From positions 682,001 to 746,000 of the forward strand of contig NZ_CP060789.1 in the NCBI RefSeq assembly GCF_014489575.1: a stretch of 64,000 nucleotides of DNA. The letters run 5' to 3'. A program made the position numbers and the translations under genes. This document shows positions 34,799 through 53,399 of the stretch, piece by piece (position 1 is the stretch's first letter; each line of letters opens with the position of its first letter). The notes under the pieces are model-generated. The model was not told the origin of the DNA. It ran no database searches and saw nothing but the letters and a program-made list of their open reading frames with translations. Source of the DNA: Tessaracoccus defluvii. Lineage in GTDB: Bacteria; Actinomycetota; Actinomycetes; Propionibacteriales; Propionibacteriaceae.

Positions 34799-34914
34799 CA
34801 GAATCGGCCCGCGCGGGCCATGTCTGTTCCTCCGCCAGCGTCTGGGCTGGCACCTTACCTCACGGTCCTGCAAGATCCATTCGATCACTGCACGGATGAG
34901 CCCAAGCCAGGCGT
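34799..34914 (-). pseudogene. 3' fragment of the second membrane-protein gene copy
   Basis: This stretch is nearly identical to 32826-32960 (3' end of the intact gene) and encodes AWLGLIRAVIEWILQDREVR plus the basic tail. It is cut at CCAGGCGT (34907-34914), and the reading continues at the other copy of CCAGGCGT at 46241. Confidence 0.8.
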
Positions 34915-36354: not shown

Positions 36355-36438
36355 GCCTTTGGGGGCCGGTGATATTGGGCTTTGGGGCCACCGCCGGCGC
36401 TGGTGGGGGCCACTGTTCCTCCACCAGCGCCTGTCTGG

Positions 36439-37182
36439 TCACTTCATGGCGGTGTGTTCTCGCATGTTGTGGTTGCCGGTGTCGATCCAGATGGTGTTGT
36501 GGACGATGCGGTCCATGATGGCGTCGGCGTGGACTCCGCCACCGAGGCGGCTGTGCCAGTCCTTCTTCGCGTACTGAGTGCAGAAGACGGTGGAGGTGGT
36601 GTCGTAGCGGCGCTCGAGGAGTTCCAGGAGCATGCTGCGCATGCTCTCGTCGGGTGGGTCGAGGAGCCACTCGTCGATCACGAGCAGGGTGAAGGCGGCG
36701 TATTTGCGGAGGAACTTCATCTGCCCTTGGGGCTTGTCCCGGGCGAGGTGCCAGGCTTCGGCGAGGTCTGGCATCCGGATGTAGTGGGCCCGGATCCGGT
36801 GCAGGCAGGCCTGTTTCGCCAGTGCGCAGCCGAGGTAGGACTTCCCGGAGCCGGTGAAGCCTTGGAACACGACGTTGTGAGAGCGTTCGATGAACGAACA
36901 CGTCGCGAGCTGCGCGATCATGCCCCGGTCCAGACCGCGTTCATCGACGAGATCGAGACGTCGCAGGTCCGCGGTGGGGTAACGCAGTCCGGCTCTGCGG
37001 ATCAGGCCATCGACTTTGGAGTGGGTGAAGGCTGAGTGGGCCTCGTCCACGATGATCTGGATCCGTTCCTCGAACCCGAGACCGAGCACGAGTTGCTCGT
37101 CCTGGGCTTGGAAGGCCTCCAGCAGCGGGGTGGCTCCCATCTCGCGGAGTTTGCGTTTGGTCTCGACGTCCAGGCTGCTCAT
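36439..37182 (-). CDS. istB: IstB, IS21 transposition helper ATPase
   Basis: A 247-residue AAA+ ATPase of the DnaC/IstB group that assists the IstA transposase. Walker A is GFTGSGKSYLGCAL, Walker B is FTLLVIDEWLL, and sensor residues lie near STVFCTQYAKKDWHSRLGG. The frame is intact. Its start overlaps the end of the istA C-terminal remnant (ATGA-type), the normal IS21 arrangement. Confidence 0.92.
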   Translation of the reverse strand: MSSLDVETKRKLREMGATPLLEAFQAQDEQLVLGLGFEERIQIIVDEAHSAFTHSKVDGLIRRAGLRYPTADLRRLDLVDERGLDRGMIAQLATCSFIERSHNVVFQGFTGSGKSYLGCALAKQACLHRIRAHYIRMPDLAEAWHLARDKPQGQMKFLRKYAAFTLLVIDEWLLDPPDESMRSMLLELLERRYDTTSTVFCTQYAKKDWHSRLGGGVHADAIMDRIVHNTIWIDTGNHNMREHTAMK

Positions 37183-37503
37183 CGGCTGCTCCGCTCTGCG
37201 TAGTAGTCGGCGCCGCGGACGTAGCCGCCGGCATCGACGGGCTCGGGCATGGGTCGCTTGTCCTGCCCGGTGTCCAAGATGGGTTTGAGATGGACGTAGC
37301 GCGGCGACCTGACCCCGCTGGCGAGGGCGAGCTGGCAGGCGTCCTCCACGCGGTCGGCGGAGAATCGCCGAGACAGCCGCAGCACCGCCAACGCCGGGTC
37401 CAGACCCTGCTCATCGATGGACACGGATTCGAAGACCTGGTCGATGACCGTCTGCGTCGCGGGGCCGATCCTGGCTGCCCATTCCCGGATGCGGGCGGCG
37501 GCA
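37179..37503 (-). pseudogene. istA: istA C-terminal fragment
   Basis: This encodes the helical C-terminus of an IS21 transposase (IREWAARIGPATQTVIDQVFE, PALAVLRLSRRFSADRVEDAC, then RSPRYVHLKPILDTGQD). It is cut at 37504 by the IS30 element; the middle of the gene resumes at 38587. Confidence 0.82.
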
Positions 37504-38586
37504 GTGTCATACCGTGGAAGCAACACTGCAGGTTGATGAGAGGTTCTCCGGCGTGACGCAACGACGACCACTGACCGCCCACGACAGGGCCGAGATCTCC
37601 ACAGGTCTGAAGGCCGGCTGGGGTATCCGACGGATCGCGGTCCACCTTGACCGGGCCCCGTCCGTCATCAGCCGTGAAGTCCGTCGTAACGCCACCAAGA
37701 CCTGCGGCTACCGCGTGGTCCGAGCCGACGTCGAGGCCCAGCGCCGCCGCCGACGCCCCCAGACCCGCAAAATCGATGCCGACCCGGTACTGCGGGCCCG
37801 CGTGCTGGGCGACCTGAAACGATCCCGAACACCACGCCAGATCGCTGGACGGTTGCGTCTGGAGGCCACTGACCCCACTGTGGAGACCATGGTCCACTCC
37901 ACACCCGCTGATGGTGCTCAGGTCTCCCATGAGGCGATCTACCGGTTCATCTACGCCCTCCCCAAGGGCGAGCTGGCCCGTAACTCGGTGATGCTCAGGT
38001 CCAAGCGCACCAGCCGTAAACCACGCTCAAAGGAAGGGCGCGGAGCGCCGATCGTCGCGATGGTCTCGATCGATGACCGGCCCGCTGACGTCCCGAACGC
38101 AGGATCCCCGGCGCGTGGGAGGGAGACCTGATCATCGGTGCCCACGGCAAATCAGCGGCAGCCACGCTGGTTGAACGCGTCACCCGTTTCACAGTCATCT
38201 GCGGCCTTCCCGAAGGGAAGAAAGCCGTCGCGGTAGCCGACACGGTGGCCGAGCGGATGTGGCCCTTCCCTGAGGTACTACGAACCTCGCTGACCTGGGA
38301 CCAGGGCACAGAGATGGCCGAGCATGCCCGGTTGACCGCTGCTGTGAACCTGCCTGTCTACTTCGCCCATCCCCGCTCGCCATGGGAACGGGGCACCAAC
38401 GAAAACACCAACGGCCTGATCCGGGAGTACCTACCCAAGGGGACCTACATCACCAGCAACCAGGCCTACCTCGACGCGATCGCTGATGAACTCAACGACC
38501 GCCCCCGAGCATCCCTTGGCTTCTACACCCCAAGAGAAAAATTCGAAGCCCTCCTCGCAGCCGATGTTGCTTCGACGAATTGACAC
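37504..38586. mobile_element. IS30-family insertion sequence inside istA
   Basis: About 1083 bp. The ends form an imperfect inverted repeat beginning GTGTCA (37504) and ending TGACAC (38586), with the shared inner block GAAGCAACA. It contains one transposase gene on the plus strand, opposite to istA. Confidence 0.75.
37514..38583 (+). CDS. IS30-family transposase, frameshifted as sequenced
   Basis: The N-terminal helix-turn-helix (RRPLTAHDRAEISTGLKAG, IRRIAVHLDRAPSVISREV) and HEAIYRFIYA are in the first frame. The catalytic core (RRIPGAWEGDLIIGAHGKSA, SLTWDQGTEMAEH and the final Glu in RGTNENTNGLIREY) is in another. One C added to the CCC run at 38092-38094 joins them into about 356 residues, a normal IS30 length. 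The GTG at 37514 is a plausible start, with a later GTG at 37550 as alternative. Confidence 0.82.
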
Positions 38587-39064
38587 CGCCGGCATCCCAG
38601 GGCTGATACCGCTCGCCGGTGGGTAGGTCGGCCTCGGCTGTGCGCCAACCACCGGCCGAGCCCTCCGGCAGCAGCAGATGGCTGCTCAGCCGCTGAGAGC
38701 CGGCGAAGACTTCCAGAACACGGTCAGTGATCCGAAGGTCGACCTTCGCACCGATGTGGAGATATGGCACCGAGTAGTGGTTCTTCTCCCAGACCACGTG
38801 CCCGCTGCGGTCGACGCGGCGGCCGTAGATCCAGCGGCTGATCTCATAGGAGACCTGCGGCAACGGCCTCAGCAGCGGCTGTTCCTCCGAGATGAACACA
38901 CTCGCCCGTGAGCCGGGACGCTTCTGGAAGGGCTCAGCATTGTAGGCCGCGACCCGGCCCTCAATCGCCGCGGCCAACTCCGGCAACGACGTGAACACCT
39001 TGTCCCTGAGAGCGGCGATCACCCACGTCGCGACATGGGCCACGGTGTTCTCCACTGAGGCCTT
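38587..39064 (-). pseudogene. istA: istA middle fragment
   Basis: This encodes the central part of the IS21 transposase: ASVENTVAHVATWVIAALRD, AAAIEGRVAAYNAEPFQ, YGRRVDRSGHVVWEKNHYSV and LRITDRVLEVFAG. It is bounded by the IS30 element on one side and the RIT element on the other. The conserved Glu of the DDE triad (in VEN) is here. Confidence 0.85.
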
Positions 39065-39071
39065 GTCCTTC

Positions 39072-39091
39072 TTATCCCGAGTTCGGGATAA
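39072..39091. repeat. Palindrome at the left end of the RIT element
   Basis: TTATCCCGAGTTCGGGATAA has 9-base arms around GT. It is present only at the left end, outside the long inverted repeat, and uses the same TTATCCCGA unit found three times in that repeat. Confidence 0.85.
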
Positions 39092-39092
39092 A

Positions 39093-39179
39093 AAGGACTA
39101 TCCCGAGGATTGTGTTATCCCGAGCGCTGGTCGTCGCGCCTTGTCAGCGGTGGTAGGGACGGGTGGGTTCTCGGGATAA
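39093..39179. repeat. RIT long inverted repeat, left arm
   Basis: 87 bases matching the reverse complement of 42460-42546 at 85 positions. It contains several copies of the TATCCCGAG unit (at about 39099, 39116 and, inverted, 39170). It ends exactly at the stop of the third recombinase gene. Confidence 0.9.
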
Positions 39180-40202
39180 TCATGTGAGTCCGGCGAGTTG
39201 GAGGATCAGGTCGTCGTTTCCTTTCCAGAGGGGTGCGGGGTCGGGTGTGGTGACGGCGGCTTTCTGGATCGCGTCGCGGACCATTTGGCTGTCGGCTGTG
39301 GCGTAGATGCTGGTGGTGGTGATGCTGGCGTGGCCGAGGAACTCCTTGATGTGGGGCAGCGGCACTCCGGCGCGCAGCATTTGCATGGCGCGGGCGTGCC
39401 GTAGCTGGTGGGCGTGGATCCGTTCAGGGAGTTCTGGGCAGTCGGTGCGCGCGTTCCTGGCGTGCTTGTTGAGCAGGAAGGTGACGTTGTCCTGGCTCAT
39501 CGGCTGGGGTCGGCCCGAGCGGGTGGTGTAGAACAGCAGCGCCTCGGGCGCCGCCTTGCCTGGGTGGAAGACGCTGGCGTAGTGGTCGAGGTGGCGGCCG
39601 GTTTTGTCCATGATGGGAATGGTTCTGGTCTTGTGGCCTTTGCCGGTGACGGTCACCCTCCCGCGGCCGGGGGCGGTGTCGATGTCGGCGATCCGCAGGT
39701 CCAGGACTTCTTGGATGCGGGCGGCGGTGTCGAAGAGGAGCAGGATGAGCGTGGTGTCGCGGAGGCCTCGGCGGGTGTGTTGTCCGGGTGCGCGGATCAG
39801 GGCGTCGACGGCGGGGATGGTCAGCGGGTCGGGGGCGCGGGCAGGGGTGCGGGCGGGGCGTGTCTGCTTCACGTCCAGCCAAAGGGCCACGAGCGCTGGG
39901 TCTTCCCCAGCGCAGTAGGAGAGGAACGATTTGATCGCGGCCAGGCGTTGGTTCGCCGACGAGGCGGCCAGGTGTTGGGTGTCGGTCAGCCAGAGGGTGA
40001 ACCCGGCGATGGTGGCGCGGTCGATGACGTCGAAGGTGACCTGGCTCAGCTCGAGGTGGCGGGTTTCACGCAGGTAGGTCAGCAGCATGGTCAGCGCGGT
40101 CTTGTAGGAGCGGATGGTGTGGGGGCTGAGTCTGCGTGCTCGGGGCAGGTGGATAGTCAGCCAGGAGCGGACGAGCCGGAAGAAGTCGTCAGAGGACTGC
40201 AT
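39180..40202 (-). CDS. ritC: RIT tyrosine recombinase, third gene
   Basis: A 340-residue integrase-family recombinase. The N-terminal SAM-like core-binding domain (FFRLVRSWLTIHLPRARRL) is followed by a catalytic domain with Arg in FDTAARIQEVLDLRI, the complete HxxR box HQLRHARAMQMLRAG, then LGHASITTTSIYATAD with the Tyr nucleophile. Of the three RIT proteins it has the most canonical catalytic set. Its start overlaps the second gene by 14 bases. Confidence 0.9.
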   Translation of the reverse strand: MQSSDDFFRLVRSWLTIHLPRARRLSPHTIRSYKTALTMLLTYLRETRHLELSQVTFDVIDRATIAGFTLWLTDTQHLAASSANQRLAAIKSFLSYCAGEDPALVALWLDVKQTRPARTPARAPDPLTIPAVDALIRAPGQHTRRGLRDTTLILLLFDTAARIQEVLDLRIADIDTAPGRGRVTVTGKGHKTRTIPIMDKTGRHLDHYASVFHPGKAAPEALLFYTTRSGRPQPMSQDNVTFLLNKHARNARTDCPELPERIHAHQLRHARAMQMLRAGVPLPHIKEFLGHASITTTSIYATADSQMVRDAIQKAAVTTPDPAPLWKGNDDLILQLAGLT

Positions 40203-41208
40203 GGGACGCCTCCGGGAGGGTGGTTTCGAGGTCGGTGTTGGCGAGTCGGCGCAGGTCGGGATGGAAATCTGGGGCGAGGTGGAAGTAGTACCAGGTGTCG
40301 TCGGGATTGGTGTGGCCCAGATGCAGGCTCAGGTAGATGACCAGCGCCTCTGGGTCGCGGCCCGCGCGGGCCCATCGGTTGATGACCTCGACGACGTGGG
40401 CGTGGCGAAGGTCGTAGACACGCGGCGGTGAGCCGGGGCTGGCCGTGATCGGCGGGTCGGCGCCGTCGAGTAGTTCGCTGAACCAGTGGTCGATGGTGCT
40501 TCGGCTGTAGAAGCCGCCCGTGCGGTTCGGGAAGAACGCGACCCGGTCCCGGTGGTGTGGGCTGATCGCGGTGTCGTATCGGCGGCAGTAGTCGTGCAGG
40601 TCGGGAGAGAGGAACACCAGCCGGTCCTTGTGTCCTTTCGATTCGCGGATGTGGATGGTGCCGTGGGCGAGGTCGACGTCGTTGCGGTGGAGCTGGCGGG
40701 CCTCGCCGGGTCGCAGACCCAGGCAGTAGATCATCCGGAACATCACCGGGATGATCAGATGCCGCAGCGCGCCGTAAGGGGACTCGGTGATTCGGTCGGC
40801 CGCGTCGAAGATCGCCCGTAGCTGCGAACGGGTGTAGAGGTGCGGGCGGTAGCGGATCTGCTTGCCCGGAATGCCTTGCGGGATCACGTAGGCGTCGACC
40901 CCGAGCCCGGTCATGTGTTTGGCCAGCTGCCTGACGGGGGTGATCCTTCGCATCTGCCCGTTGACGTGCTCGCCTGGCCGGCCGGCGGCCCATTTCATGG
41001 CCATCTCGCGGGTCAGGGTGGTCTGCCCGGGATCCGCCGCGGCGCACATCGCGTCGAAATCGTGCAGATGCCGCTGCGATGTCGTGTAGGGCAGCCCGAG
41101 CGCGTGCTTGACCTGCAGGAGGGACTGGATGTGCGTGGCCAAGCCACTGACCAGCCCGGTCACGGCCGGGCCTGGTCCGGTTCGATGCCTACGAGGTCCA
41201 GACAGCAC
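40189..41208 (-). CDS. ritB: RIT tyrosine recombinase, second gene
   Basis: A 339-residue recombinase. Catalytic residues: Arg in CLGLRPGEARQLHRNDVDL, Lys region in IHIRESKGHKDRLVFL, box II VYDLRHAHVVEVINRW (the usual first His is Tyr here), LHLGHTNPDDTWYYF with the Tyr nucleophile. It overlaps the first gene by about 50 bases, implying coupled translation. Confidence 0.88.
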   Translation of the reverse strand: MLSGPRRHRTGPGPAVTGLVSGLATHIQSLLQVKHALGLPYTTSQRHLHDFDAMCAAADPGQTTLTREMAMKWAAGRPGEHVNGQMRRITPVRQLAKHMTGLGVDAYVIPQGIPGKQIRYRPHLYTRSQLRAIFDAADRITESPYGALRHLIIPVMFRMIYCLGLRPGEARQLHRNDVDLAHGTIHIRESKGHKDRLVFLSPDLHDYCRRYDTAISPHHRDRVAFFPNRTGGFYSRSTIDHWFSELLDGADPPITASPGSPPRVYDLRHAHVVEVINRWARAGRDPEALVIYLSLHLGHTNPDDTWYYFHLAPDFHPDLRRLANTDLETTLPEASHAVL

Positions 41209-42404
41209 TGCCGCATTCGGTCTTCGTCGGCGGCGAGGTAGTGCTTCGCGGAGTCGATTCCCCGATGCCCCAAGGCGCCGGCGATCACCGGCAACGGCGT
41301 GTCCCGCTCGAGCATCCTGGTCGCCAACGATGCCCGCAGCACCCGCATCCCGCGGCCCGCCTCGCCGGTCGAGGCGGCATGGGTGCGGGCGAACGCCCCT
41401 GCCGCCACGTGATACAGATCACTCGACGGCGACAAGGCGACATGCGGGGCCTGCGATCTCAGGAACACGTGATCGTCGCCGACGCCAGCAGGTCTATCGT
41501 GGAGGAGATACTCGGCGATCGCGGTACCCACATCCGCCAACAGCGGCAGCGTCAACACCGTCGCCGTCTTGCGCTGGATCAGCGTGATCTGGCCCTGCCG
41601 CCAATCGATGTCTTGCAGCCGCAGGCCAGCGATATCGCCCGGACGCAATCCCGTCCGGGCCGCCAACAGCAGCATCGCCCGGTCCCGGCGGCCGGTCAGA
41701 GTGCCAGGATCAGTCGAATCGACCAACTGCTCAACGGCGCGCGCCGACAGTACCCTCACCGCGTGGATGCGTCGGGAGAACACCGCCGGAACCGCGCCGT
41801 CCAGCCCCGCGCGCAGACCGGCGTCCTCCAGGAAGCGGCACCACACCCGCAGCGCGGTCACCACGGTGCGCATACTGCCCGGCCGGTAGCGTCCACCCAG
41901 GAACACCACCGCCGCGGACACGTCCTCACGCGACAGCTGCCGCACGTCGGTGATCCCCCGTTCGGGCAGCCAGGCCAGCACTGTTCGGGCCACGGTCGCA
42001 TACAGATGCTGAGTGTCGAGCGCCAACCCGCGGCCCGTCAGCCACTCCTCGAACTGATCCTGGACCCGACGCAACACCGCCTCCAGGCCGTCGTTGGGAT
42101 GCCTCCGCCGGGACACCGACCACCTGTAGGTCCCGGTCCTGGCCACCTCCGACAACACCAGCACGGCCTTGCGCAGCAGCTTGCGCTTCCAGTCCTTGAT
42201 CCGGCCCAGTCCATGCTCTCCCGCCACGAAGCACAAGAACTCGGCCGTGATCTCGTCTGTGAGCTCATCGTCGCCTCGCTGGGAACAGAACAACTCCACC
42301 TGCGACCACGCCCACCGGTACTGCCACAACGTCGACGGCGCAAGCCCCAGCGCGGTCACAGCCGAGTCAGTCCGCGCGATCAACTCCCCAACAGGAACAC
42401 TCAT
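41160..42404 (-). CDS. ritA: RIT tyrosine recombinase, first gene
   Basis: A 414-residue recombinase, first transcribed. N-terminal core-binding domain ALGLAPSTLWQYRWAWSQVE; catalytic domain with Arg in LAARTGLRPGDIAGLRL, box II MRVLRASLATRMLERD (an Arg where His is usual), LGHRGIDSAKHYLAAD with Tyr. In an RIT the three proteins are thought to act together; this one may have a modified active site. Confidence 0.88.
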   Translation of the reverse strand: MSVPVGELIARTDSAVTALGLAPSTLWQYRWAWSQVELFCSQRGDDELTDEITAEFLCFVAGEHGLGRIKDWKRKLLRKAVLVLSEVARTGTYRWSVSRRRHPNDGLEAVLRRVQDQFEEWLTGRGLALDTQHLYATVARTVLAWLPERGITDVRQLSREDVSAAVVFLGGRYRPGSMRTVVTALRVWCRFLEDAGLRAGLDGAVPAVFSRRIHAVRVLSARAVEQLVDSTDPGTLTGRRDRAMLLLAARTGLRPGDIAGLRLQDIDWRQGQITLIQRKTATVLTLPLLADVGTAIAEYLLHDRPAGVGDDHVFLRSQAPHVALSPSSDLYHVAAGAFARTHAASTGEAGRGMRVLRASLATRMLERDTPLPVIAGALGHRGIDSAKHYLAADEDRMRQCCLDLVGIEPDQARP

Positions 42405-42459
42405 GACCCCTCACCTCCACTTGAAGAACTACAGAGATGAGGAACATAGACATGCTCGG

Positions 42460-42546
42460 TTATCCCGAGAAAGCACCCGTCCCTACCACCGCTGACAAGG
42501 CGCGACGACCAGCGCTCGGGATAACACAATCCTCGGGATAGTCCTT
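42460..42546. repeat. RIT long inverted repeat, right arm
   Basis: The partner of 39093-39179, with only two mismatches (GG in one arm, CT in the other at the inner end). It lies 55 bases upstream of the first recombinase gene and probably also contains its promoter. Confidence 0.9.
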
Positions 42547-43299
42547 GGGTTTCCTCACCCGGCCTGGCAGCACCGCCGCAGAGTAGTGCGCCGCCATCTC
42601 CCGATACGAATCGTTCAACACGACCTCACCCTCCCGGGGATGCTTCACCACCCCGGTCTTCAAATTGTCCGGAACAATCCGCGGGACCGACCCACCGAAC
42701 GCGGCGAACATCGCCACGTGTGCCCGCAGCCACGTGTCCTGCTTCATCTCCAGCGCGGGATAGACGAACGCGAACCTGCTGAACGGCAAACACGCCACGA
42801 ACAAGTAGACCTTCGACACCTCCCCGGTCGCCGGGTTCGTCAGTTCCATCGTCGGCCCCGACCAGTCGACCTCCACGCTCTGCCCGGCCTTGTGGCCCAC
42901 CCTCGACGAAGCCCCCGTCACCAGCACGTGGCGCTGGTAGGTCTTGCAGAACCGGTCATAGCCCATCGCCGGCACCCGCTCCGCGGCGCACGAGTCGGTG
43001 TATTCGCCGTGGAGTAGTTTCAGCGTGACCCCGACCCGGGCCATCTCCTTGTGGACCTGGTCCCAGTCCGGCTGAGCGAACACCGTCTCATGCTCACCGC
43101 GTCCCGGGAACAACAAGCCATAGACCTCGCCGTCGGGCAGGTCGGACACGTCATCCCACGACACCCCAGCCGCGTCCGCGGCCTCCAACACCGCCGTCAC
43201 CGACTTGCGTGACATCTACTGCGACGCGGCGATCGCCCGCCCCGACAGCCCCTCGGCACGAAGCTGCAACACCAGCTTCGCCTTGATCTTTCGTACCAT
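42547..43299 (-). pseudogene. istA: istA N-terminal fragment with an internal amber codon
   Basis: It starts at the ATG at 43299 with AAGGAG upstream and reads MVRKIKAKLVLQLRAEGLSG, then a TAG at about 43216-43218 before MSRKSVTAVLEAADAAG. The rest holds the first two catalytic regions (VEVDWSGPTMEL and IVPDNLKTGVVKHPR). It is truncated at the RIT element. The gene is thus inactivated three ways: amber codon, RIT and IS30. Confidence 0.82.
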
Positions 43300-43462
43300 C
43301 GAAGAATCTCCTTCCGCCGCGTGCCCTATACACACGGCGGGAGGAGCCTAGAATCCAGCGGCCCCCAACCACGCCACCGCTGGCCCCCAACGAGACGATC
43401 CACGCCACCAGCCAGTGGCCCCCAAACACACGATCACCGGACCCCAGCAGCGCTGATATTCA

Positions 43463-43736
43463 CATCATTCTGCTTTCGTGTCAGGAGCCACCCCTTACAC
43501 AAACCATCTGACATGCATGCTGGTATGACGGTGCGGGGGTCGTGACCCGAAATCTGACTGGCGTCCTGCTGGGCTGCCGATGGTTTGATCAGTCCGGCTC
43601 CCGCGCCTTCTGACGGCACCGGCCGGTCGGGCATGACCTAATACGAGCCTGACCCCGTCGCAGGAGGCCTGGTGCATGTCCTGTCTGACCGATCCGGCCG
43701 GTGTCGACCCCACTGGATCGGAAGGGCACTCCCAGC
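43463..43736 (+). other. Non-coding left end of IS110, candidate bridge-RNA region
   Basis: 274 bases without a convincing gene upstream of the IS110 transposase. In the IS110 family the non-coding end upstream of the recombinase encodes a bridge RNA that pairs with target and donor DNA. Several GC-rich self-complementary stretches are visible, but the RNA structure was not computed. The label is inference from the family. Confidence 0.35.
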
Positions 43737-44891
43737 ATGACAGAGCACCACCACCGGGTCGGCGGAATCGACTCCCACAAAGACAGCATCCACGCTGCGG
43801 TCATCGACGAGGTCGGGCATCACGTTGCCGATCGTGAGTTCCCGACCACGCAAGCCGGCTACCGTCGGGCGGTCGCATGGCTCATCGAGCACGGCCCCTT
43901 GACTGCGGTCGGGGTCGAAGGAACCTCGAGCTACGGCGTCGGCATCACCGCAGCCATCGCCGCGGCTGGCATCCGCGTAGTGGAAGTCAACCGCACCAGA
44001 CCGGCCGAGCGGCGACGGCAGGGGAAGACAGACCGGCTCGACGCCTACCGTGCCGCCCGATCGGTGCAGTCGGGTGAAGCCACCACCGATCCGAAGAGCG
44101 CCACGATCGAACCGCTGCGTGCACTGAACGTGGCCCGTCGCTCCGCGGTCAAAGCTCAGCAAGTCGCTCTGCGGCAGATCGGCGCGGTGCTGATCAACGC
44201 CCCCGCGCATCTCCGGGATCGTTACCGAGATCTGAGCGACGCGAAGCTCGTCACCGCTCTTGCTGCCGTCCGGCCAGAGCAACACACTGATCCCGGTCTG
44301 GCCGACACCCTCCACTCCCTGCGTTCACTGGCACGCCGTCATCGCACCCTCGGCGAAGAGATCGCCGACATCGAGGCTCGCATGAGAGCACGTGCGACCG
44401 CCGCCAACCCCGCCCTCATGGCTGTCAAGGGAGTGGGTCCCGTTGTTGGCGCTCAGCTACTGATCACCGCCGGTGACAACCCTGACCGGCTCCGATCCTC
44501 CGCGTCCTTCGCTGCACTCTGCGGCACCGCTCCGATCCCTGTCAGCTCCGGCCGCACCGACCGGCACCGGCTCTCCCGCGGCGGAGACCGGCAAGCCAAC
44601 GCCGCGCTGCACCACATCGTGAAAGTCCGACTCTCCTGCGATCCGGCCACCCGCGCCTATCGCGACGCTCACCTCGCGAAGGGATGGACGATCAAAGCCG
44701 TGTTCCGCGCGCTCAAACGCGCCGTCGCACGCGAGATCTTCCAGGCACTCACCGGGCACTGCGCCGTGCCCGACTACAGCGACCTCCGACCAGCCCGCCG
44801 AGCCAAGAACCTCACCCTCACCGCGGCCGCGGAACACCTCGGGGTCTGGCCATCCCGGATTGGACTGCGGGATGAAATCCGGACCGCTTGA
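43737..44891 (+). CDS. IS110-family transposase (DEDD recombinase)
   Basis: A 384-residue protein. The N-terminal RuvC-like DEDD domain begins VGGIDSHKDSIHAAVID (first Asp), with Glu in VGVEGTSSYG and later Asp residues in KTDRLDAYRAARS. The C-terminal Tnp_20 domain contains VKGVGPVVGAQLL and the catalytic Ser region GTAPIPVSSGRTDRHRLSRGG. The ATG at 43737 is used; the frame runs upstream without a better start. It appears intact. Confidence 0.92.
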   Translation: MTEHHHRVGGIDSHKDSIHAAVIDEVGHHVADREFPTTQAGYRRAVAWLIEHGPLTAVGVEGTSSYGVGITAAIAAAGIRVVEVNRTRPAERRRQGKTDRLDAYRAARSVQSGEATTDPKSATIEPLRALNVARRSAVKAQQVALRQIGAVLINAPAHLRDRYRDLSDAKLVTALAAVRPEQHTDPGLADTLHSLRSLARRHRTLGEEIADIEARMRARATAANPALMAVKGVGPVVGAQLLITAGDNPDRLRSSASFAALCGTAPIPVSSGRTDRHRLSRGGDRQANAALHHIVKVRLSCDPATRAYRDAHLAKGWTIKAVFRALKRAVAREIFQALTGHCAVPDYSDLRPARRAKNLTLTAAAEHLGVWPSRIGLRDEIRTA

Positions 44892-44901
44892 TATTCATGT
44901 T

Positions 44902-45786
44902 TCAGGCTGCCTTGTTGGTTTCGTACCAGTCCTGCTCTGCTTCGTTCGGGGTACGATATTGAAGCGCGGAATGCAACCGTTTCTGATTGTAACGCAACTC
45001 GATGTAGCGTGCAATATCCCGGATAGCATGCCGCCGAGTCGGATACACGGTCCGATGAACCCGCTCCACTTTCAAGGTCGCGTTGAACGACTCCGCCCAC
45101 GCATTGTCATAGCAGATACCAGTCCGTCCGACCGACCGAACAATCCCAGCCGCGCGCGTGAACTCGGCAAACTCGGCCGACATGTATTGAGTCCCGCGAT
45201 CCGAATGGAAAATCGTCTCCCCGCTGCGGATATGGCCATTACTGATCGCCATGGCCAGGGCGTCGGTGACCAGCTCGGTTCGCATGTGCTCGGCCATCGC
45301 GTACCCGACGACCTTCTTCGTGCAGCAGTCCAGCACGGTGGCCAGATACACCCACCCCTGCCAGGTCGGGATGTAGGTGATGTCCCCGACCAGCTTCAGC
45401 CCGGGCTCGTCGGCGGTGAAGTCCCTGTTGACCAGATCCGGCAGATCCTTCGCGTCAGCCGGGATCGTGGTCCTGGGCCCGCTGCGGCGCGGCTGACAAG
45501 CCACCAAGCCACGCTCGGCCATGATCGCACGCACCGTCTGCGGGTCACACGGCCTCCCGGCCCGCACCAAGGCGGCATGGATCCGTCGGTAGCCGTAGGT
45601 GGCGTCGGAGTCGGCGAACAGGACCTCGATGATGTCGCCGAGCTCGTCGCGCCACCGCTGGGTCACCGAGACCGGCCGGTTGAGCCACTCGTAGTAGCCG
45701 GCCCTCGACACCCTCGCCCACCGACACATGCTCCGGATCGAGTAGTTGCCTTCTTCGCTGTTGATGAACGCGTACTTCGCGGTCAC
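44902..45786 (-). CDS. IS3-family transposase OrfB (DDE integrase)
   Basis: 294 residues with the rve core: Asp in LKLVGDITYIPTWQGW, Asp in IFHSDRGTQYMSAEF and Glu in NAWAESFNATLK. The N-terminal HTH_21 region (SIRSMCRWARVSRAGYYEW) is complete. Its GTG start overlaps the orfA stop (GTGA), so it is made by coupling or as an OrfAB fusion through frameshifting, as usual in IS3. Confidence 0.93.
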   Translation of the reverse strand: MTAKYAFINSEEGNYSIRSMCRWARVSRAGYYEWLNRPVSVTQRWRDELGDIIEVLFADSDATYGYRRIHAALVRAGRPCDPQTVRAIMAERGLVACQPRRSGPRTTIPADAKDLPDLVNRDFTADEPGLKLVGDITYIPTWQGWVYLATVLDCCTKKVVGYAMAEHMRTELVTDALAMAISNGHIRSGETIFHSDRGTQYMSAEFAEFTRAAGIVRSVGRTGICYDNAWAESFNATLKVERVHRTVYPTRRHAIRDIARYIELRYNQKRLHSALQYRTPNEAEQDWYETNKAA

Positions 45787-46067
45787 CGGAACTCTTTGGC
45801 GAAGAAGGCCGCCGCTTTTCCCAGGAACTCCCGCTCGGCCTTCAACTCACGGACCTCCTTACGCAACCGTGCCAGTTCAGCACGCTCCGGTTCGCTGATC
45901 TCCGGTAACTCATCCGGGTGGTCCCGCCGATACGCATTCACCCAATTCCTGAGTGTTTCCGAGCCGATACCATGATCACGCGCGACCTCGGCAACAGTCC
46001 GCGACGACTCAATCACCGCACGAACCGCCTCCGCCTTGAATTCCGGGCTGAACTTCTTCCGGGTCAT
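45783..46067 (-). CDS. IS3-family transposase OrfA (HTH)
   Basis: 94 residues: helix-turn-helix RKKFSPEFKAEAVRAVIE with EVARDHGIGSETLRNWV, followed by a leucine-zipper-like coiled coil (ERAELARLRKEVRELKAEREFL). This is the normal IS3 OrfA. Confidence 0.93.
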   Translation of the reverse strand: MTRKKFSPEFKAEAVRAVIESSRTVAEVARDHGIGSETLRNWVNAYRRDHPDELPEISEPERAELARLRKEVRELKAEREFLGKAAAFFAKEFR

Positions 46068-46125: not shown

Positions 46126-46278
46126 ATCCCTCACCTCAGATCGGCGAACTCGAACTCGGCAGACGACCCAACGACGACCTCGCCCACCGCTACCGCGAAT
46201 GGCTCACCGCCGCTTGACACGCAATAGGAGCATCACCCTCCCAGGCGTGGACCGTAACTAGACCGACGAGTGGGTCAC
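46126..46278. other. Remnant sequence and split-gene junction
   Basis: 46138-46217 can be read on the plus strand as an ORF tail (IGELELGRRPNDDLAHRYRE...) that looks like the end of an unidentified transposase or element protein. At 46241-46248 the 8-mer CCAGGCGT repeats that at 34907-34914; from there to about 46278 the minus strand encodes GDPLVGLVTVHAW, the missing middle of the second membrane-protein copy. Its 5' part is gone, replaced by the end of the next gene. Confidence 0.6.
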
Positions 46279-46970
46279 CCATGCGGCTGAGGAGGAAAAA
46301 CAGACACCGGTGTGCGGCCCACATAGCGTGCCGAAGCCCCCTCACTCCACCCCGGACCGTCCGTGGAGACCAACTCGTCACAGTCCTCGGCATAGAGAAA
46401 CTCCAGGTTCCGTGCCGAAGAAAACACACCCAGGTCAGACATCCCCCTGAGACCCGTCAGGTGCAGCTCCCGCAGCGACGTCAACCCCTCAATACGTTCC
46501 ACGCGGGCGTCCCACTTCGTCACCAGCGCGATGTCCAGCACCTCGACAGACTCCGGAAGACGCTGCGGCAACGTCCGCGGTCGATCCAGCCTGACCCGCT
46601 TCAACCGCGGCAACGACTCCAACCACAACGCCCACGGCCTGGTACAGGCGTCGAGGAACACCGACTCCAACAGCTCACCGCCAGCAGGGACAATCTTCCT
46701 GCCAGGCCCCACCTCGACGCCCAAATCCCGCAATTTCGGCAGAGACTCCAGCCGAAAGGTCCCCGAGCAGTAGGGCCCGATAGACAACTCCTCCAGATTC
46801 GGCATGCGGTCGATCGCCGAAAGATCACTCACTCCACTGCTAACAGTTAGGCCACGCCAACGCTCCCCCGGAAGCAAGTCATCGAGACTACCCTCGGGCC
46901 ACTCCACACAGTTGATGAACCGGCTCACCACCGGCAACAGCGGCCGCCTATACAACCGGGTATACCTCAT
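46275..46970 (-). CDS. Leucine-rich-repeat protein, candidate immunity protein for the RHS toxin
   Basis: A 231-residue cytoplasmic protein of repeated leucine-rich units (LSAIDRMPNLEELSIG, LESLPKLRDLGVEV, WLESLPRLKRVRLD, LPESVEVLDIALV, IEGLTSLRELHLTGL, VFSSARNLEFLYAEDC). The start ATG overlaps the toxin stop as ATGA, so the two are translated together. A single small gene right after a polymorphic-toxin tip is nearly always its immunity gene. I did not recognise an established immunity family. The last residues run into insertion-sequence debris, so the natural C-terminus may have been altered. Confidence 0.7.
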   Translation of the reverse strand: MRYTRLYRRPLLPVVSRFINCVEWPEGSLDDLLPGERWRGLTVSSGVSDLSAIDRMPNLEELSIGPYCSGTFRLESLPKLRDLGVEVGPGRKIVPAGGELLESVFLDACTRPWALWLESLPRLKRVRLDRPRTLPQRLPESVEVLDIALVTKWDARVERIEGLTSLRELHLTGLRGMSDLGVFSSARNLEFLYAEDCDELVSTDGPGWSEGASARYVGRTPVSVFPPQPHG

Positions 46971-49900
46971 AATCCCCTCCAGTTTCGTTTAGTGGATCTG
47001 AGGAGATGTTGCCGTTTCGGCCCGATCGGGTTCACCTTGTTCAGGAGGTTCCTTTTACCGCCCAGCTTGTTAATCATGCGTTGCTCAGCAACCTCTCTGC
47101 GCGTCTTCGTCCCTTTAACAACATAGGTCTTGGCTTTTTTGACCTCGGCCTGAGTAAATTTCCCCTTCGCCACATGTTGCTGCAGGCGTTTACCAATCTT
47201 CGCCGACTGGCCTACATATTTGGCTCCCTTAGCGTTTTTGATGACATAGATGCCGCCCTTCAGTAGCTTGGCTGCCTTGTAAGCTCTATAACCCCATGCA
47301 ATGCCTGCCGTGGCAGGTATGAAGCTTGCCGCCGTGAGCAGGATATCGACCTTGTGTTTCCAGAGGAAGGCCCCTACCTTCTTCAGCCAGCCTGCTTGCC
47401 CACTGATGTCCTCATCATTCACGGGGTCGTTGGGGTAGGTGTAGGGGGTGTCGTTGCCTCCGTAGATGGGGTCGTTGCTGGTGAACAGGCCCGTGGTGGG
47501 GTTGTAGAGGCGGGCTCCCATGAGGAGGATGCCTGTTGTTGTGGTGGTGCGTTGTTTGGCGCCGAGCCAGCCGTAGCCGTTACCTGCGGCTCCGCCGGTG
47601 CCGGTGGGTTGGGTGGTGATGGGTTGGCCGTATTCGGTGTACCGGGTCCAGGAGTCGAGCCCATCCGCGGCCGCGTCGCTGGTGTTGAGGGTGATGGTGG
47701 AGGCGACATCACCGCGGGGAGTGGTGAGAGCCAACTCGCCTCGGGTGGTGTCGTTCTCGGTGATGATCGACAGTGACAGGTCCCCGCTGACAAGGTCGGC
47801 GTAGACGGTGGTGGCCGTGCCGGTCATGGAGGCGTTGGTGATCCAGCCCGGATTGTCTGAGTTGTCGACGTAGTGGTTGGTGACGGTGCGGGCCTCCACG
47901 GTGGACGTTTCGGTGGATCGGCGCCCCGCCACGTCGAGGCCGTAGGTGAGGGTGGTGGTCCCTTGGGTGATGCTGCGGGCTGAGTCGTCGTCGTAGTAGC
48001 CCAACGCGATGTCAGCCTTGGCCGGGTCCGGTGCGTCGACAGCCGGGATCACCAATTGGCGGCCGAGCTGGTCGTAGGAGTAGCTGCCCGTGCCGTCCCC
48101 ACCGGTCACCGGTCGGTCCGCGGCGTCGTAGCTGCGGGTCGTGGTCGGGGTGGTGGCGGTGCAGCTGGTGGCGGTGTTGGTGTTGGTTCCGGTGCGGTTC
48201 CCGCGGGCGTCGAATAGGTAGCTCCGCACGGTGCAACCGCCGTTTGCGGTGTCGCGGGCCTCGATGAGTCGCCCCGCCGAGTCGTAACGGTAGGCCACCT
48301 CTGCACTCTCCGGGGTAGTGGTGCCGGGCAGCACCTCGGAGGCTTCTGGGCCGTGTTCGGTGACGATCTGGCCCTTCGCGTTCGCGGTGATGGTCCAGCC
48401 CAACCATGCGGCCGGTTCCGTCCTGCCGGCTTGAGGGCCCCAGTAGCTTTGCGAGATCAGCTCTCCGGTCAGGTCATAGTCCGAGCGGCGTTCGATGTTG
48501 CCGGGGAGCTTCTCCAGGGTGAGGTTCCCTTGAGCGTCGTAGCCAGCGGTGGCGGTCGACGTGAAACCTCCGACCGTGGTGACCACCTTTGTCAGCAGCC
48601 CGCGATATTCGGCGTTGCCACCTGCATCGGTGCCGTCGTAGGTGTTGACGGTGACCGACTTCGGCGTGGTGACCTTCGCCACATCGCCTAGCTGGTTGTA
48701 CTCGGTGGTGGTGGTCTCCGCGACCCCACCCGTGGTGATGGTGTAGGTCAGTTCACGGCCCCACGTGTCGTAGGTCATCGCGGTAGATCCCGCCGCGGAC
48801 GAGGTGCCCGTGACGCGGCTATAGGTGTCGTAGCTGGTCGTCACCGCCGGGAGCGGGGTCGATCCGGTCAACCCGGTAACGCTCGTGGTGACAGTGACAG
48901 GGCGGGCCTGCGAGTCGAACGTCACGGTCTGGGTGCGGGTCACGGTCCCGGAGATGTCCTGACTGGTCGCGGCGGCTCCGTGCCACTGGTAGTCGCTGTG
49001 GATCGTCACCGGAATGGTGGTGCCAGCGGGTTGCCCGGCCGGGCCTTCCTTGCACACGTAGCCGGCCCATTTCGGCTGGTTGCCGCAGGCCGCGTCACGG
49101 GCGTTGCCGCCGGCCGACCAGTAGATGGTGGCCCGGGTGCCGGGGTCGCTGTTGGCAGCGCCTGGCTGGCGCTGTTCGGAGATGCGGCCCTGGTTGTCGT
49201 AGCGGGTCTCCTTGCGGATATCACTAGCGTCAGCGGTCCCGTTGGCGTTCATGTCGAGGGTGACGGAGGTGGCCTGCTTCAAGTCCCAGCCCGTCTTGTC
49301 TCCCGACACGAGCGCTTCATAGCCGGTGAAGGTCGTTGACAGGGTCTCCGCAACGGTCCCGTCGAGGCGTTCGGCTGTGATGGTCTCGGTCGTGGCTAGC
49401 GACAGGCCAGGGCTAGGGGCGCCCTGGTCGTAGGTGGTGGCCACGTGACGACGCAGCATCTCGGGCATGTCGGCGCCGGCCGCGAGGATCATCGCCGCTG
49501 GCGTGAACACGTCGGTCACCCGGGTACGGGCCGCCACCAGCACCGCCGTGCCGTCAGCGGACTTGATCTCATCCTGGTTGTATCGAGTGGACGTGGCCGC
49601 CGACAACGGATCCGGATACGCCGAGTTGTCGCCCTTCCGGAGCTCGGCAGTTGCCTGCGCGTCCCACGACTCGATGACGTTGTCCGAAGCGTCGTAGATC
49701 GCCGCGGTCAGCTGCCACTGCCCGCCGCCGTAGCGGCCCTGGTGGATGGTGTAGCCCTCCGCATCCGTGAGCCACACATCGGCGCGGCGCCAACTCTCAT
49801 CCCCGGCAGCCGGGGTCGACGTAATAAGCGCGTCGGGGCCGAACACCGCGAACCCGGTGGTAGCGGTCCGGGGAAGGTTATAGCGGTCGAACTGGGCCAG

Positions 49901-52900
49901 GTCGACCCCAGCAATGCCCGCAGGGGCAACGCCGTAAACGATCCCTGCGAGCTGCGCAGTCCCACCGCCGGCCGTGGCCGGAACCGGGCGGGTAACCTTC
50001 GACAGCTTCCCATCAGTGCCATAGTCGTAGCTGTAGGCGGCCTGCCCAGCAGGGGTCAAGGATGCCAACTTGGGTTGCGGGTCGGCCCCGGTCCAGGTGT
50101 AGCTGGTCGTGAGTCCCGTGACCGCATCAGTCTGCGAGGTGAGCCTGCCAGCGGTGTAGGTGTAGGTCGACAGGACCCGGTCTGGATCCGTGTTGACCTG
50201 CGCGGAGACCTTCGACAGGCGGGTCGCTGCCCCGGTGCCGGTGTATTCCAGCTTCAGCACCCGGCACCCATCGGTCGGCGTCCCCGGCACGCAGCTGGTC
50301 ACCCCATCCGGCAACGGCGCAATGATCGCGGTGACCTGCCCGGCGGTGTTGTACCGGTAGGCCGTCTTCTCGCCCGTGACCTTGTCCGTCACGCTATCAG
50401 TGACGAACTTCGCCTCCGCAGCGGCAGACGACAGCGCCGGGGCCGTGAACAACGTCTCGATGCCATCCTTGTCCTTCGCGGTCACCTTGATCTGACCGCC
50501 CTCGGTGGCGAGCTTCAAGGTCAGCTCGGTTGCCTCGGCGTCCGGGCCGATCGGGAGATAGTCACCTGCCTGCAAAGTGGTCGTGGTGCGCACCGCATCA
50601 TTGGCGGGCCCGAACGGGAACACGTCCCCCTCAGCCGAAACCAACACCAGGGTGCCATCCACGAGGGTGTTGTCCGCCAACTCCATCTCCGAGACCCCCA
50701 TAGGCCCGCCATCAAGCGAAGCAGTCCAGCCCGGGCCGAACACCGACTGCGCAACTGTCGTGTCACCAGCCCACGTCGAATGGGTCCTGGAGATCGACAA
50801 CCCGCCACCCGGAGTAGCCAGATCCGCATCAGACTCGGACACCTGGAACTCGCCCGTCCACAACGCCACCTGACCGGTCGCGACCTCAGTAGTCGGGAAC
50901 CCCGCACCAAACGCGTGCGGAACCCGCACCACCTCACGCGGCTCCGTGAACAGCGGCGTAGCGGTGCCGTACTGGAACTTCGCCCGGATCTCAAACACCG
51001 CCGAAACCCGCTTCGGGATGGTCGGGTTCGCAGCCAAGATCGACGCCGAATCAAACGACCCCGTGAACACGCCGGCCGCCGTCACCGCGGCCGGGATATC
51101 TGTCCAGGTCGCCCCGGACCCCTTCAACCGCCACTGCACCGCACCCGTCACAGCCGGCCCACTACCCTGCGGCGCACCAACAGCGGTGACCTTCACCGAC
51201 CCATGCGTCGTCGACACACCCGCCGGAGCCGTCAACGACGGAGCCCCATACCCAAACGCGTACTTGGCGATCGGAGACTGCCGACCACCAATCGACGTCA
51301 CGTACGCCTCCAGGCTGTGCCCGCCCGTGGTTCCACCAACTGAGGCAGAAGCGACCACCCGCGACGCGGTCAACGGTGTGAACGACTCGGTGCGCCAAGC
51401 GCCCCCATCGACCCGATACATCACAGATGTCGGAGCAGAATACGATGCAGTCGCAGAGTACAACCCGGTGATGGTGCAGGTCTCAGCGGCCCTCACCAAC
51501 TCGTCCCAGGAACCGTTGCCGGATGGGCACGATATCGGAGGAGCGGTCGGAACCACGTACCCCGTCCTCACCTCAAAAGCAGGGCCCCACCCCGACCACG
51601 TGTGACCATCCGAGAGCGTCACCCGAAGCCACATCGTGGTGTTACCCGGCAGATCCACAGTCGGAACACACGACGCGCTCGACCCGCTAGCCACCCACAC
51701 CCGACACAACTCCTCGGTCGCAGTCAACGACGACGCCGACGTGAACCGAGAAAACACCGCAGTCACACCATTGAGATCAGGGTCGCTCACCGTCGCCGAC
51801 AGGGTCGGCCGCGAGTTCCCCACATACTTGAAGCCACCAGAGGTGATGTTCCCCGCAACCCACGGAGCAGGAGGAACATTCGGAGGCCGGTTGTACGACA
51901 CCGCGATGACCGGCTTGTACGACCCCTCCGACGAGTGGAAACGCTTCCACCCCAGACTGTCCGTCTCATCATCAGCACGCAACATCATCCCGACCTGCGC
52001 CTGCGTCGTCGCCGACCACGCCTTAGCCTGCTCAGTCATGTTGATGTCAACGCGGCTGGCAGGACACGACGACGAGTACCCGAGAGCAGCCGACACCGAT
52101 GCACGCTTCACACCGATCGACGGCTGAGCCGCCCACCTGGTAGCCGACGAAGCCAGCCCCGCATCATACGAACTGAACGACCGCGCAGTACACGACCACG
52201 AATGAGACTCAAACAGAGACAAGCTCGCGCCGAGGATCTGCCGGTTCTTGAACAACGCCGCATCAAAGTTGAGGTAACTCCTAGCCACCTGCCCAGACCC
52301 GTTGTTACCCAGCTTCAACTCAGCCGACGCTGACTGATCCGACGAGTAGCCCTGCTGCACGAACGTGTCAAACACCGGAGTCCCCGACGCATAGCCGTAT
52401 GTCGGATCGATCACCACGGGGAACACCCGGGACTCATCCAACAACCACTCCTGATCAGCAACCACATCCACATCCCGAGTCACAGGACCAGACGTGCTGC
52501 CGGAACGAGCAGCCGGAGCCGGCGCAACCTCAAACTCGATCTGCTGCTCATCACCCCGCTCACCAGGAACCTCAGCCGACGAATCCCACATCGACGGAGC
52601 CACAAACACGCCCACCTGATCACCCAACTGGGACAGCTCCACCCCACCAGCATCCGTCTCCGACACCGGCACCTTCGACCGCAGCTTCAACGGCAACGAC
52701 ACCGACCCATCCGCACCGAACCGCTCCACCAAACCCGCAGCCGCCTCCGCAGACTTCACCACCCACAACACCTCGAAACCGCTAGAGCGGACCTCCACCG
52801 ACAGATCCACCCCGACAAACACCTCCGGGTACACCGCCACAGACCCATCCAGCACCGGCACCGGCAACGTCACACCATCAAGACCAAGACCCATCTCGTC

Positions 52901-53314
52901 CGCAGAACCCGCCGCGAACACCACCAACTCCTCGGAACCAGTGCCGAGCTCCACCTCCACCGGCATCGCTATCGGCGCGACAGACCCGTCACTGGCCGCC
53001 ACCAACGTGGTGTCAATATCGCGCCACCCATCCGCAGCAGCCGCGTCCTCGAACCGCACCGGCGCGAACGCCGTCTCCTCCTCCACAGAACCATCCGGAT
53101 GCGCCCACACCCGCATCGTCTCCGTACGCTCAGACAACACCTCAACCCGCACACCCTGCACACGCGCCGTCACCGACGCCGACGTCCAATCCGGCCGCGA
53201 CACCTCACCAACAGGTTCCGGCTCTGGATCACCCGGGTCCGCCCACGCGGGCGACACCCCCGCCACCAAAGCAACCGACACAAACAGCCACAACACACAA
53301 CGCCACACACGCAT
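46967..53314 (-). CDS. Secreted RHS-repeat polymorphic toxin with C-terminal GIY-YIG nuclease domain
   Basis: 2115 residues. A Sec signal peptide (MRVWRCVLWLFVSVALVAG...AWA) is followed by a large N-terminal wall/beta region (residues about 30-850) and RHS/YD repeats (about 860-1960; for example YDAQGNLTLEKLPGNIERRSDYD and YSYDQLGRQLVIP). The RHS core end reads YNPTTGLFTSNDPIYGG and PNDPVNDEDISGQ. The tip (about 1974-2115) has a hydrophobic helix, then a GIY-YIG nuclease: GIY 2021-2023, YVG 2033-2035, Arg 2043, Glu 2077 and Asn 2092. The tip is AT-richer than the rest, as after tip exchange. The ATG at 53314 is chosen over the longer frame because it starts the signal peptide. It probably kills competing cells by DNA cleavage. 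Confidence 0.85.
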   Translation of the reverse strand: MRVWRCVLWLFVSVALVAGVSPAWADPGDPEPEPVGEVSRPDWTSASVTARVQGVRVEVLSERTETMRVWAHPDGSVEEETAFAPVRFEDAAAADGWRDIDTTLVAASDGSVAPIAMPVEVELGTGSEELVVFAAGSADEMGLGLDGVTLPVPVLDGSVAVYPEVFVGVDLSVEVRSSGFEVLWVVKSAEAAAGLVERFGADGSVSLPLKLRSKVPVSETDAGGVELSQLGDQVGVFVAPSMWDSSAEVPGERGDEQQIEFEVAPAPAARSGSTSGPVTRDVDVVADQEWLLDESRVFPVVIDPTYGYASGTPVFDTFVQQGYSSDQSASAELKLGNNGSGQVARSYLNFDAALFKNRQILGASLSLFESHSWSCTARSFSSYDAGLASSATRWAAQPSIGVKRASVSAALGYSSSCPASRVDINMTEQAKAWSATTQAQVGMMLRADDETDSLGWKRFHSSEGSYKPVIAVSYNRPPNVPPAPWVAGNITSGGFKYVGNSRPTLSATVSDPDLNGVTAVFSRFTSASSLTATEELCRVWVASGSSASCVPTVDLPGNTTMWLRVTLSDGHTWSGWGPAFEVRTGYVVPTAPPISCPSGNGSWDELVRAAETCTITGLYSATASYSAPTSVMYRVDGGAWRTESFTPLTASRVVASASVGGTTGGHSLEAYVTSIGGRQSPIAKYAFGYGAPSLTAPAGVSTTHGSVKVTAVGAPQGSGPAVTGAVQWRLKGSGATWTDIPAAVTAAGVFTGSFDSASILAANPTIPKRVSAVFEIRAKFQYGTATPLFTEPREVVRVPHAFGAGFPTTEVATGQVALWTGEFQVSESDADLATPGGGLSISRTHSTWAGDTTVAQSVFGPGWTASLDGGPMGVSEMELADNTLVDGTLVLVSAEGDVFPFGPANDAVRTTTTLQAGDYLPIGPDAEATELTLKLATEGGQIKVTAKDKDGIETLFTAPALSSAAAEAKFVTDSVTDKVTGEKTAYRYNTAGQVTAIIAPLPDGVTSCVPGTPTDGCRVLKLEYTGTGAATRLSKVSAQVNTDPDRVLSTYTYTAGRLTSQTDAVTGLTTSYTWTGADPQPKLASLTPAGQAAYSYDYGTDGKLSKVTRPVPATAGGGTAQLAGIVYGVAPAGIAGVDLAQFDRYNLPRTATTGFAVFGPDALITSTPAAGDESWRRADVWLTDAEGYTIHQGRYGGGQWQLTAAIYDASDNVIESWDAQATAELRKGDNSAYPDPLSAATSTRYNQDEIKSADGTAVLVAARTRVTDVFTPAAMILAAGADMPEMLRRHVATTYDQGAPSPGLSLATTETITAERLDGTVAETLSTTFTGYEALVSGDKTGWDLKQATSVTLDMNANGTADASDIRKETRYDNQGRISEQRQPGAANSDPGTRATIYWSAGGNARDAACGNQPKWAGYVCKEGPAGQPAGTTIPVTIHSDYQWHGAAATSQDISGTVTRTQTVTFDSQARPVTVTTSVTGLTGSTPLPAVTTSYDTYSRVTGTSSAAGSTAMTYDTWGRELTYTITTGGVAETTTTEYNQLGDVAKVTTPKSVTVNTYDGTDAGGNAEYRGLLTKVVTTVGGFTSTATAGYDAQGNLTLEKLPGNIERRSDYDLTGELISQSYWGPQAGRTEPAAWLGWTITANAKGQIVTEHGPEASEVLPGTTTPESAEVAYRYDSAGRLIEARDTANGGCTVRSYLFDARGNRTGTNTNTATSCTATTPTTTRSYDAADRPVTGGDGTGSYSYDQLGRQLVIPAVDAPDPAKADIALGYYDDDSARSITQGTTTLTYGLDVAGRRSTETSTVEARTVTNHYVDNSDNPGWITNASMTGTATTVYADLVSGDLSLSIITENDTTRGELALTTPRGDVASTITLNTSDAAADGLDSWTRYTEYGQPITTQPTGTGGAAGNGYGWLGAKQRTTTTTGILLMGARLYNPTTGLFTSNDPIYGGNDTPYTYPNDPVNDEDISGQAGWLKKVGAFLWKHKVDILLTAASFIPATAGIAWGYRAYKAAKLLKGGIYVIKNAKGAKYVGQSAKIGKRLQQHVAKGKFTQAEVKKAKTYVVKGTKTRREVAEQRMINKLGGKRNLLNKVNPIGPKRQHLLRSTKRNWRGL

Positions 53315-53369
53315 CAACGGGCCAACCTTTGGCAACGACGGAGGCCCCAATGCCTCAACAAGTGAGCAC

Positions 53370-53399
53370 ACTATGCACCACTCGACTAAGTAGGAGCAA
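53370..53399 (-). promoter_or_regulatory. Possible promoter of the RHS toxin gene
   Basis: On the minus strand TTGCTC (53394-53399) and CATAGT (53370-53375) are 18 bases apart and lie about 55 bases upstream of the toxin start. The match to consensus is modest. The remaining intergenic sequence to 53510 shows no gene. Confidence 0.3.

Follow-up and report, generated by a model that had tools for sequence, protein, structure and literature searches.

A leucine-rich-repeat gene behind the GIY-YIG nuclease-type tip of an Rhs toxin in Tessaracoccus defluvii, and its predicted role as a cognate immunity gene

Introduction

Leucine-rich-repeat (LRR) proteins were named as an immunity class of polymorphic toxin systems, Imm-LRR, by Zhang et al. 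(2012; PMC3482391), with actinobacteria among the bacteria included. Their tabulated setting is 'next to T5SS toxins', with polyimmunity loci as a further one, and the entries of that paper on Imm-LRR give neither a pairing with a URI/GIY-YIG toxin nor a dedicated pairing with any one toxin. For the GIY-YIG toxins Tox-URI1 and Tox-URI2 the corresponding entries list Imm14, 26, 44 and 51, and Imm9, 39, 12 and 44, respectively, none of which is named there as an LRR protein (PMC3482391). In Stenotrophomonas rhizophila the LRR protein WP_141058140.1 is tabulated as 'Nuclease immunity', and LRR genes are named in a low-GC region behind the Rhs effector tse6 (PMC13340143). This case, compared here by description only, resembles ours in that an LRR protein is called immunity, by annotation, and differs in that the Rhs tip carries no known domain and the main text of that paper does not mention GIY-YIG. 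Within the open-licence literature available in full text, a scope that leaves most subscription journals outside, we found no LRR immunity protein that had been tested and whose toxin is known.

Rhs toxins that end in a GIY-YIG domain have been described with other partners. In Yersinia, the downstream gene encodes TkiA, which neutralises the Rhs GIY-YIG DNase TkeA (PMC12302616), and this gene order provides a precedent for an antidote positioned behind a GIY-YIG Rhs toxin. In Salmonella, the partner given for PAAR-RhsA-GIY-YIG is a CdiI-type protein (PMC10469887). As described in these sources, both systems share with Tox-URI1 and Tox-URI2 a C-terminal GIY-YIG domain on an Rhs protein with an immunity gene behind it. 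The same layout is found at the locus analysed here, where the gene behind the toxin instead specifies an LRR protein, P0001. This locus lies in a 64,000-nt stretch of the Tessaracoccus defluvii genome, the whole of which is referred to as the window. An earlier note on this DNA had proposed that the LRR protein is the immunity partner of the toxin and that it could be a new type of nuclease immunity.

Results

The features of the locus are listed in Table 1. The start codon of P0001 (ATG) and the stop codon of the Rhs gene (TGA) overlap as ATGA, as the earlier note had described, and a GGAGGGG stretch is visible by eye just 5' of this start codon. Its description as the sole gene directly downstream was likewise borne out, as it is the only same-strand ORF of at least 70 aa between the Rhs stop and the IS3-type transposase pair. 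That the gene is AT-rich like the tip was true in direction only: it is AT-shifted mildly, having 62 % GC (0.621) against 52 % (0.523) in the tip and 68 % (0.679) in the window, with 0.653 in the remaining Rhs ORF; GC3 values are 0.746 for the P0001 gene, 0.627 for the tip and 0.796 for the Rhs body. The P0001 search found a single copy in the 3.86-Mb, single-contig genome. Further Rhs-core sites in the same genome (L129, C1:40665-44000; L130, C1:8373-11700) carry different tips and different downstream genes.

Table 1. Features of the toxin-LRR locus in the window
Feature	Position	Strand	Details
LRR protein P0001, predicted cognate immunity	46275..46970	-	231 aa, ATG start
ATGA overlap of Rhs stop and LRR start	46967..46970	-	ORF coordinates and sequence
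Rhs/YD-repeat polymorphic toxin with DNRLRE and Rhs core	46967..53371	-	2134 aa, profiles
Toxin C-terminal tip: pre-tip linker and GIY-YIG nuclease-type domain	46967..47395	-	PF01541
IS3-type transposase pair (45783-46067 and 44902-45786)	44902..46067	-	Module boundary, outside the module

Directly downstream of the pair, mobile genes are crowded into ~12.6 kb (33433-46067), comprising two Mutator-type transposases, IstB, an HTH_38 frame that appears IS30-like by eye, a recombinase trio, and IS110 and IS3 types. The trio (39180-42404, minus strand) consists of three adjoining, slightly overlapping tyrosine recombinase genes of 340, 339 and 414 aa (Pfam Phage_integrase), and resembles a 'recombinase in trio' element.

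Against NCBIfam the Rhs ORF matched DNRLRE (78 bits, cut-off 34), YD_repeat_2x (31.5, cut-off 15.8) and Rhs_assc_core (36.4, cut-off 32.5), and in Pfam RHS_repeat (19.7, cut-off 22) and DUF6531 (22.3, cut-off 24.1) fell just below their thresholds. With YD/RHS repeats and an Rhs-associated core ahead of a variable tip, the protein is an Rhs/YD-repeat carrier, and a putative N-terminal secretion signal was noted by eye. The C-terminal piece scored 38.0 bits against PF01541 (GIY-YIG; cut-off 22.6), and a GIY-YIG match at E ≤ 0.1 was obtained for each of the seven homologous tips collected in the survey below. Residues Y50, Y60-V-G62, R70, E104 and N119 (tip numbering) are invariant in all seven; we take Y50, Y60, R70, E104 and N119 to be catalytic-type residues of the GIY-YIG family, and their invariance fits the expectation for an active toxin. 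When the tips were compared with the Tox-URI1 signature, as worded in the entry that defines it, the Y, YxG, R and N elements were present, and at the [RK]xxE element the window tip reads E-V-A-E and that of genome G469 R-I-A-E; we do not assign the tip to Tox-URI1. The structure model of the tip was poor (pLDDT 52), and a search against PDB sequences gave no match for it.

For P0001, the match to Pfam LRR_4 was weak (E 2e-5; 25.1 bits, below the curated cut-off of 27), and the same family was matched by all seven homologous partners at E ≤ 0.1, at best with 7.3e-11. An AlphaFold2 model built from three sequences (pLDDT 78, pTM 0.80) contains about nine strands set 19-24 residues apart, starting near residues 38, 61, 82, 103, 125, 144, 168, 189 and 208. 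Its top PDB matches are LRR proteins, and a sequence search of the PDB gave 26 matches, all of them weak (best E 0.00098), of which those that could be recognised are LRR proteins as well. Together these results uphold the earlier description of a protein built from leucine-rich repeats, and P0001 is an LRR protein by predicted fold. This is a generic binding fold, which alone shows no function. The seven tip-linked LRR proteins are all acidic (pI 4.9-6.0), and when each was searched with a profile from which it had been excluded, the scores were 81 to 239 bits (E at most 3.5e-27, for a one-sequence database).

To see what lies behind related tips, we searched with the tip alone and turned to the adjoining gene only once the tips had been identified. 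A single-tip search found matches to be retained in 4 of 197 family genomes at E ≤ 1e-3 (the window's own, G155, G087 and G149); two of its six matches, L015 and L016, covered mainly the pre-tip linker (query positions 2-82 and 6-60), did not match the GIY-YIG tip profile, gave no hit of the LRR profile in the 1500 nt that follow, and were left out. The four-tip profile matched 5 of 391 order genomes at E ≤ 1e-8, adding G238 and G331, the six-tip profile 2 of 394 class genomes, adding G469, and the seven-tip profile, at E ≤ 1e-6, only the window's own among 223 phylum genomes; the family, order, class and phylum samples overlap. The seven tips thus come from the window and six other genomes, in four families (f1, f2, f3 and f34) of one class, with G087 and G149 placed in the window's family. 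Behind every one of them (6/6 without the window) the first same-strand gene encodes a related LRR protein. It overlaps the toxin gene by 4 nt at four of the seven loci, as ATGA (window, G238 and G331) or GTGA (G087), and follows at the other three after 1 nt (G149), 12 nt (G469) or 17 nt (G155). The earlier note had asked whether homologues sit next to GIY-YIG tips, and had held that a different gene conserved beside homologous tips would speak against it; the tip-only searches found the LRR gene in this position each time and no other gene conserved there. Elsewhere, no match was returned by a close-relative search of genome contigs with the LRR protein, by two LRR and two tip queries against a plasmid collection, by the tip query against a phage collection or by the tip profile against viral contigs.

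Two of these loci have features of their own. Few kb from the pair in G331 lies a small protein that is WXG100-like by eye (L032:852-1223, minus strand), and another export route may therefore serve that tip. In G238 the Rhs part is separated from the GIY-YIG tip by a HINT-like autoprocessing domain, again judged by eye (L031, upstream of 7130, plus strand); this domain was not seen in the window toxin.

Other Rhs sites served as a control; the Rhs core (TIGR03696) is present in 95 of 196 order genomes. This set comprised 70 Rhs-core sites, 30 being returned loci and 40 being picked from the list, and was non-random, with several sites coming from one genome. None of the 70 control tips matched the tip profile, and the LRR profile found nothing downstream of any of the 70 sites, whether by ORFs or by three-frame translation, with at least 300 nt of downstream sequence at 65 and at least 600 nt at 56 of them; the same procedure matched all seven positives. 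The linkage hence stands above the background of other toxins (7/7 versus 0/70), with a Fisher's p of ~5e-9 for 6/6 (window excluded) against 0/70 when relatedness is ignored. Furthermore, two Rhs genes that have the same pre-tip linker and another tip (the second copy in G155, and C232 in G087) showed no LRR-profile match within the 1500 nt that follow. Taken with the empty control set, this indicates that the LRR gene follows the tip and not the carrier.

Tip and LRR protein also diverge jointly. Over the seven pairs, pairwise identity spans 27-70 % for the tips and 17-43 % for the LRR proteins, and the two divergences are correlated (Mantel r 0.51, a value reached in 20 of 5040 permutations), although common descent of the hosts may account for part of this, as host phylogeny is left in the correlation. 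The LRR proteins of the window's tip clade (window, G155 and G087) are 216-239 aa long, and those of G149, G238, G331 and G469 are 278-298 aa long. Tip and LRR gene were found together on different Rhs backbones. These observations bear on the possibility that the LRR protein provides generic or orphan immunity and stands beside the tip, as in polyimmunity, without being cognate to it. LRR proteins do occur in heterogeneous polyimmunity loci according to the relevant entries of Zhang et al. (2012; PMC3482391), relatives of P0001 also exist away from tips, and in G246 an LRR gene is the second gene behind an Rhs with another tip; but a non-cognate gene would hardly be expected to take the first position behind 7/7 tips and 0/70 other Rhs sites, nor to diverge jointly with the tip, and we regard this explanation as very unlikely.

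Relatives of the LRR protein were also sought directly. With P0001 as query, ten matches were obtained in 9 of 197 genomes at E ≤ 1e-3, four of which were weak (E 5.7e-5 to 8.8e-4), lay in long frames or a stop-containing frame and were not counted as partners. The remaining six, all below 1e-10 and including P0001 itself, comprise three that are tip-linked (window, G155 and G087) and three that are not (G162, G024 and G172). The seven-LRR profile matched 58 of 391 genomes at E ≤ 1e-7, many in long frames; its five best matches are tip-linked, these sequences being in the model, and unlinked LRRs scored 136 (G162), 104 (G024) and 80 bits (G131), the last of these close to the weakest true partner under leave-one-out (81 bits). 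Judged by such scores, the family boundary is soft, and membership extends beyond the genes paired with the GIY-YIG tip. The earlier note had named homologues lying mostly away from such toxins as evidence against its reading, and this applies by half: three of the six strong P0001 matches are tip-linked, whereas with the wider profile many are not. That LRR proteins are so common might suggest a cellular gene unrelated to the toxin, with a surface, defence or regulatory role. Nevertheless, the tip linkage recurs, P0001 matched none of the PADLOC models of anti-phage defence (0 families at E ≤ 0.1), and its short frame has no signal sequence obvious by eye, making an unrelated gene scarcely credible.

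No GIY-YIG tip was seen in the upstream frames of 11 other LRR loci (12 fetched, L077 left out), and the tip profile found no match in the six frames of 15 unlinked-LRR neighbourhoods (the 12 loci plus L020-L022), among which that of L074 reaches ~350 nt upstream of the LRR frame before the contig ends. Some of these neighbourhoods have an immunity-type character. In G162 a Colicin_immun protein lies two genes from the unlinked LRR, and in G024 (L021:8546-9526, plus strand) a Cys_rich_CPCC domain (E 1.9e-18), which we take to be immunity-linked, is fused to a P0001-related LRR region; two unlinked LRR loci lie near ankyrin or CPCC-type proteins. A partial CPCC match was also noted just ahead of the LRR gene in G258 (L072). 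In G246 (L069:5395-6854, plus strand) the gene behind an Rhs with another tip encodes a protein that weakly matches bacterial PH families (YqeB-like and SunI-like), and the LRR gene comes next, possibly as a two-gene immunity set. These observations fit a wider pool of immunity-type LRR proteins, one lineage of which would pair with GIY-YIG tips.

It could alternatively be argued that the LRR protein assists the toxin instead of acting as its antidote, for example as an adaptor or chaperone when the tip is folded or exported. A generic binding fold would suit such a role, as would the confinement of the gene, among the Rhs sites studied, to those with this tip, and its overlap with the toxin gene at four of seven loci. 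In the window, however, no other antidote candidate follows, the next same-strand genes being the transposase pair. The LRRs of G162, G024 and G172, with no GIY-YIG tip in the neighbourhoods retrieved, are also more readily explained as orphan immunity genes than as chaperones of the tip; two of the three have either an immunity-type neighbour or a CPCC fusion. An accessory role is accordingly improbable, if somewhat less so than the other alternatives.

Discussion

The proposal that the LRR gene is the immunity partner of the toxin gains support from its linkage to all seven tips and to none of the 70 other Rhs sites, its function being a predicted one. From this genomic evidence, P0001 is very probably the cognate immunity protein of the GIY-YIG nuclease tip; toxicity, binding and neutralisation by the pair are what we infer. 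By analogy with its family, the Rhs protein would be exported and its C-terminal nuclease delivered into a neighbouring cell. Inside producing cells and their kin, the LRR solenoid would remain cytoplasmic and bind the tip, presumably blocking its access to nucleic acid or its active site. Through the ATGA overlap, translation of the toxin would lead on to that of the antidote. Tip and LRR gene behave as one cassette, which may be exchanged as a unit.

Mammalian ribonuclease inhibitor, a horseshoe-shaped acidic LRR protein that blocks basic secreted nucleases of the RNase A type, offers a possible model for the action of P0001, although the target here is of the GIY-YIG type. It was absent among the PDB matches listed for P0001, which has no bearing either way. 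In the window, the strongly basic tip (+25 in its last 100 residues) and the acidic LRR protein fit binding, but charge provides no general explanation; basic tip charge as a general rule of binding was rejected, as three of the seven tips are near neutral. A broader suggestion is that these proteins form a dedicated family of LRR inhibitors for GIY-YIG tips, an analogue of ribonuclease inhibitor in which solenoid length and surface track the tip and the two are exchanged as a cassette. This we put forward tentatively, judging it to fall a little short of even chances.

Whether P0001 is a new type of nuclease immunity, as the earlier note had it, calls for a divided answer. The Imm-LRR kind was already named in 2012 (PMC3482391), and it is most likely the consistent pairing of an LRR protein with a GIY-YIG tip, within that known kind, that is new relative to the entries of that paper. 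In the open-licence literature covered here, LRR immunity proteins have so far been named from gene neighbourhoods. A defined and recurrent toxin-LRR pair makes it possible to measure how an LRR antidote binds, how specific it is and how it evolves, and offers a bacterial comparison for the inhibition of nucleases by LRR solenoids.
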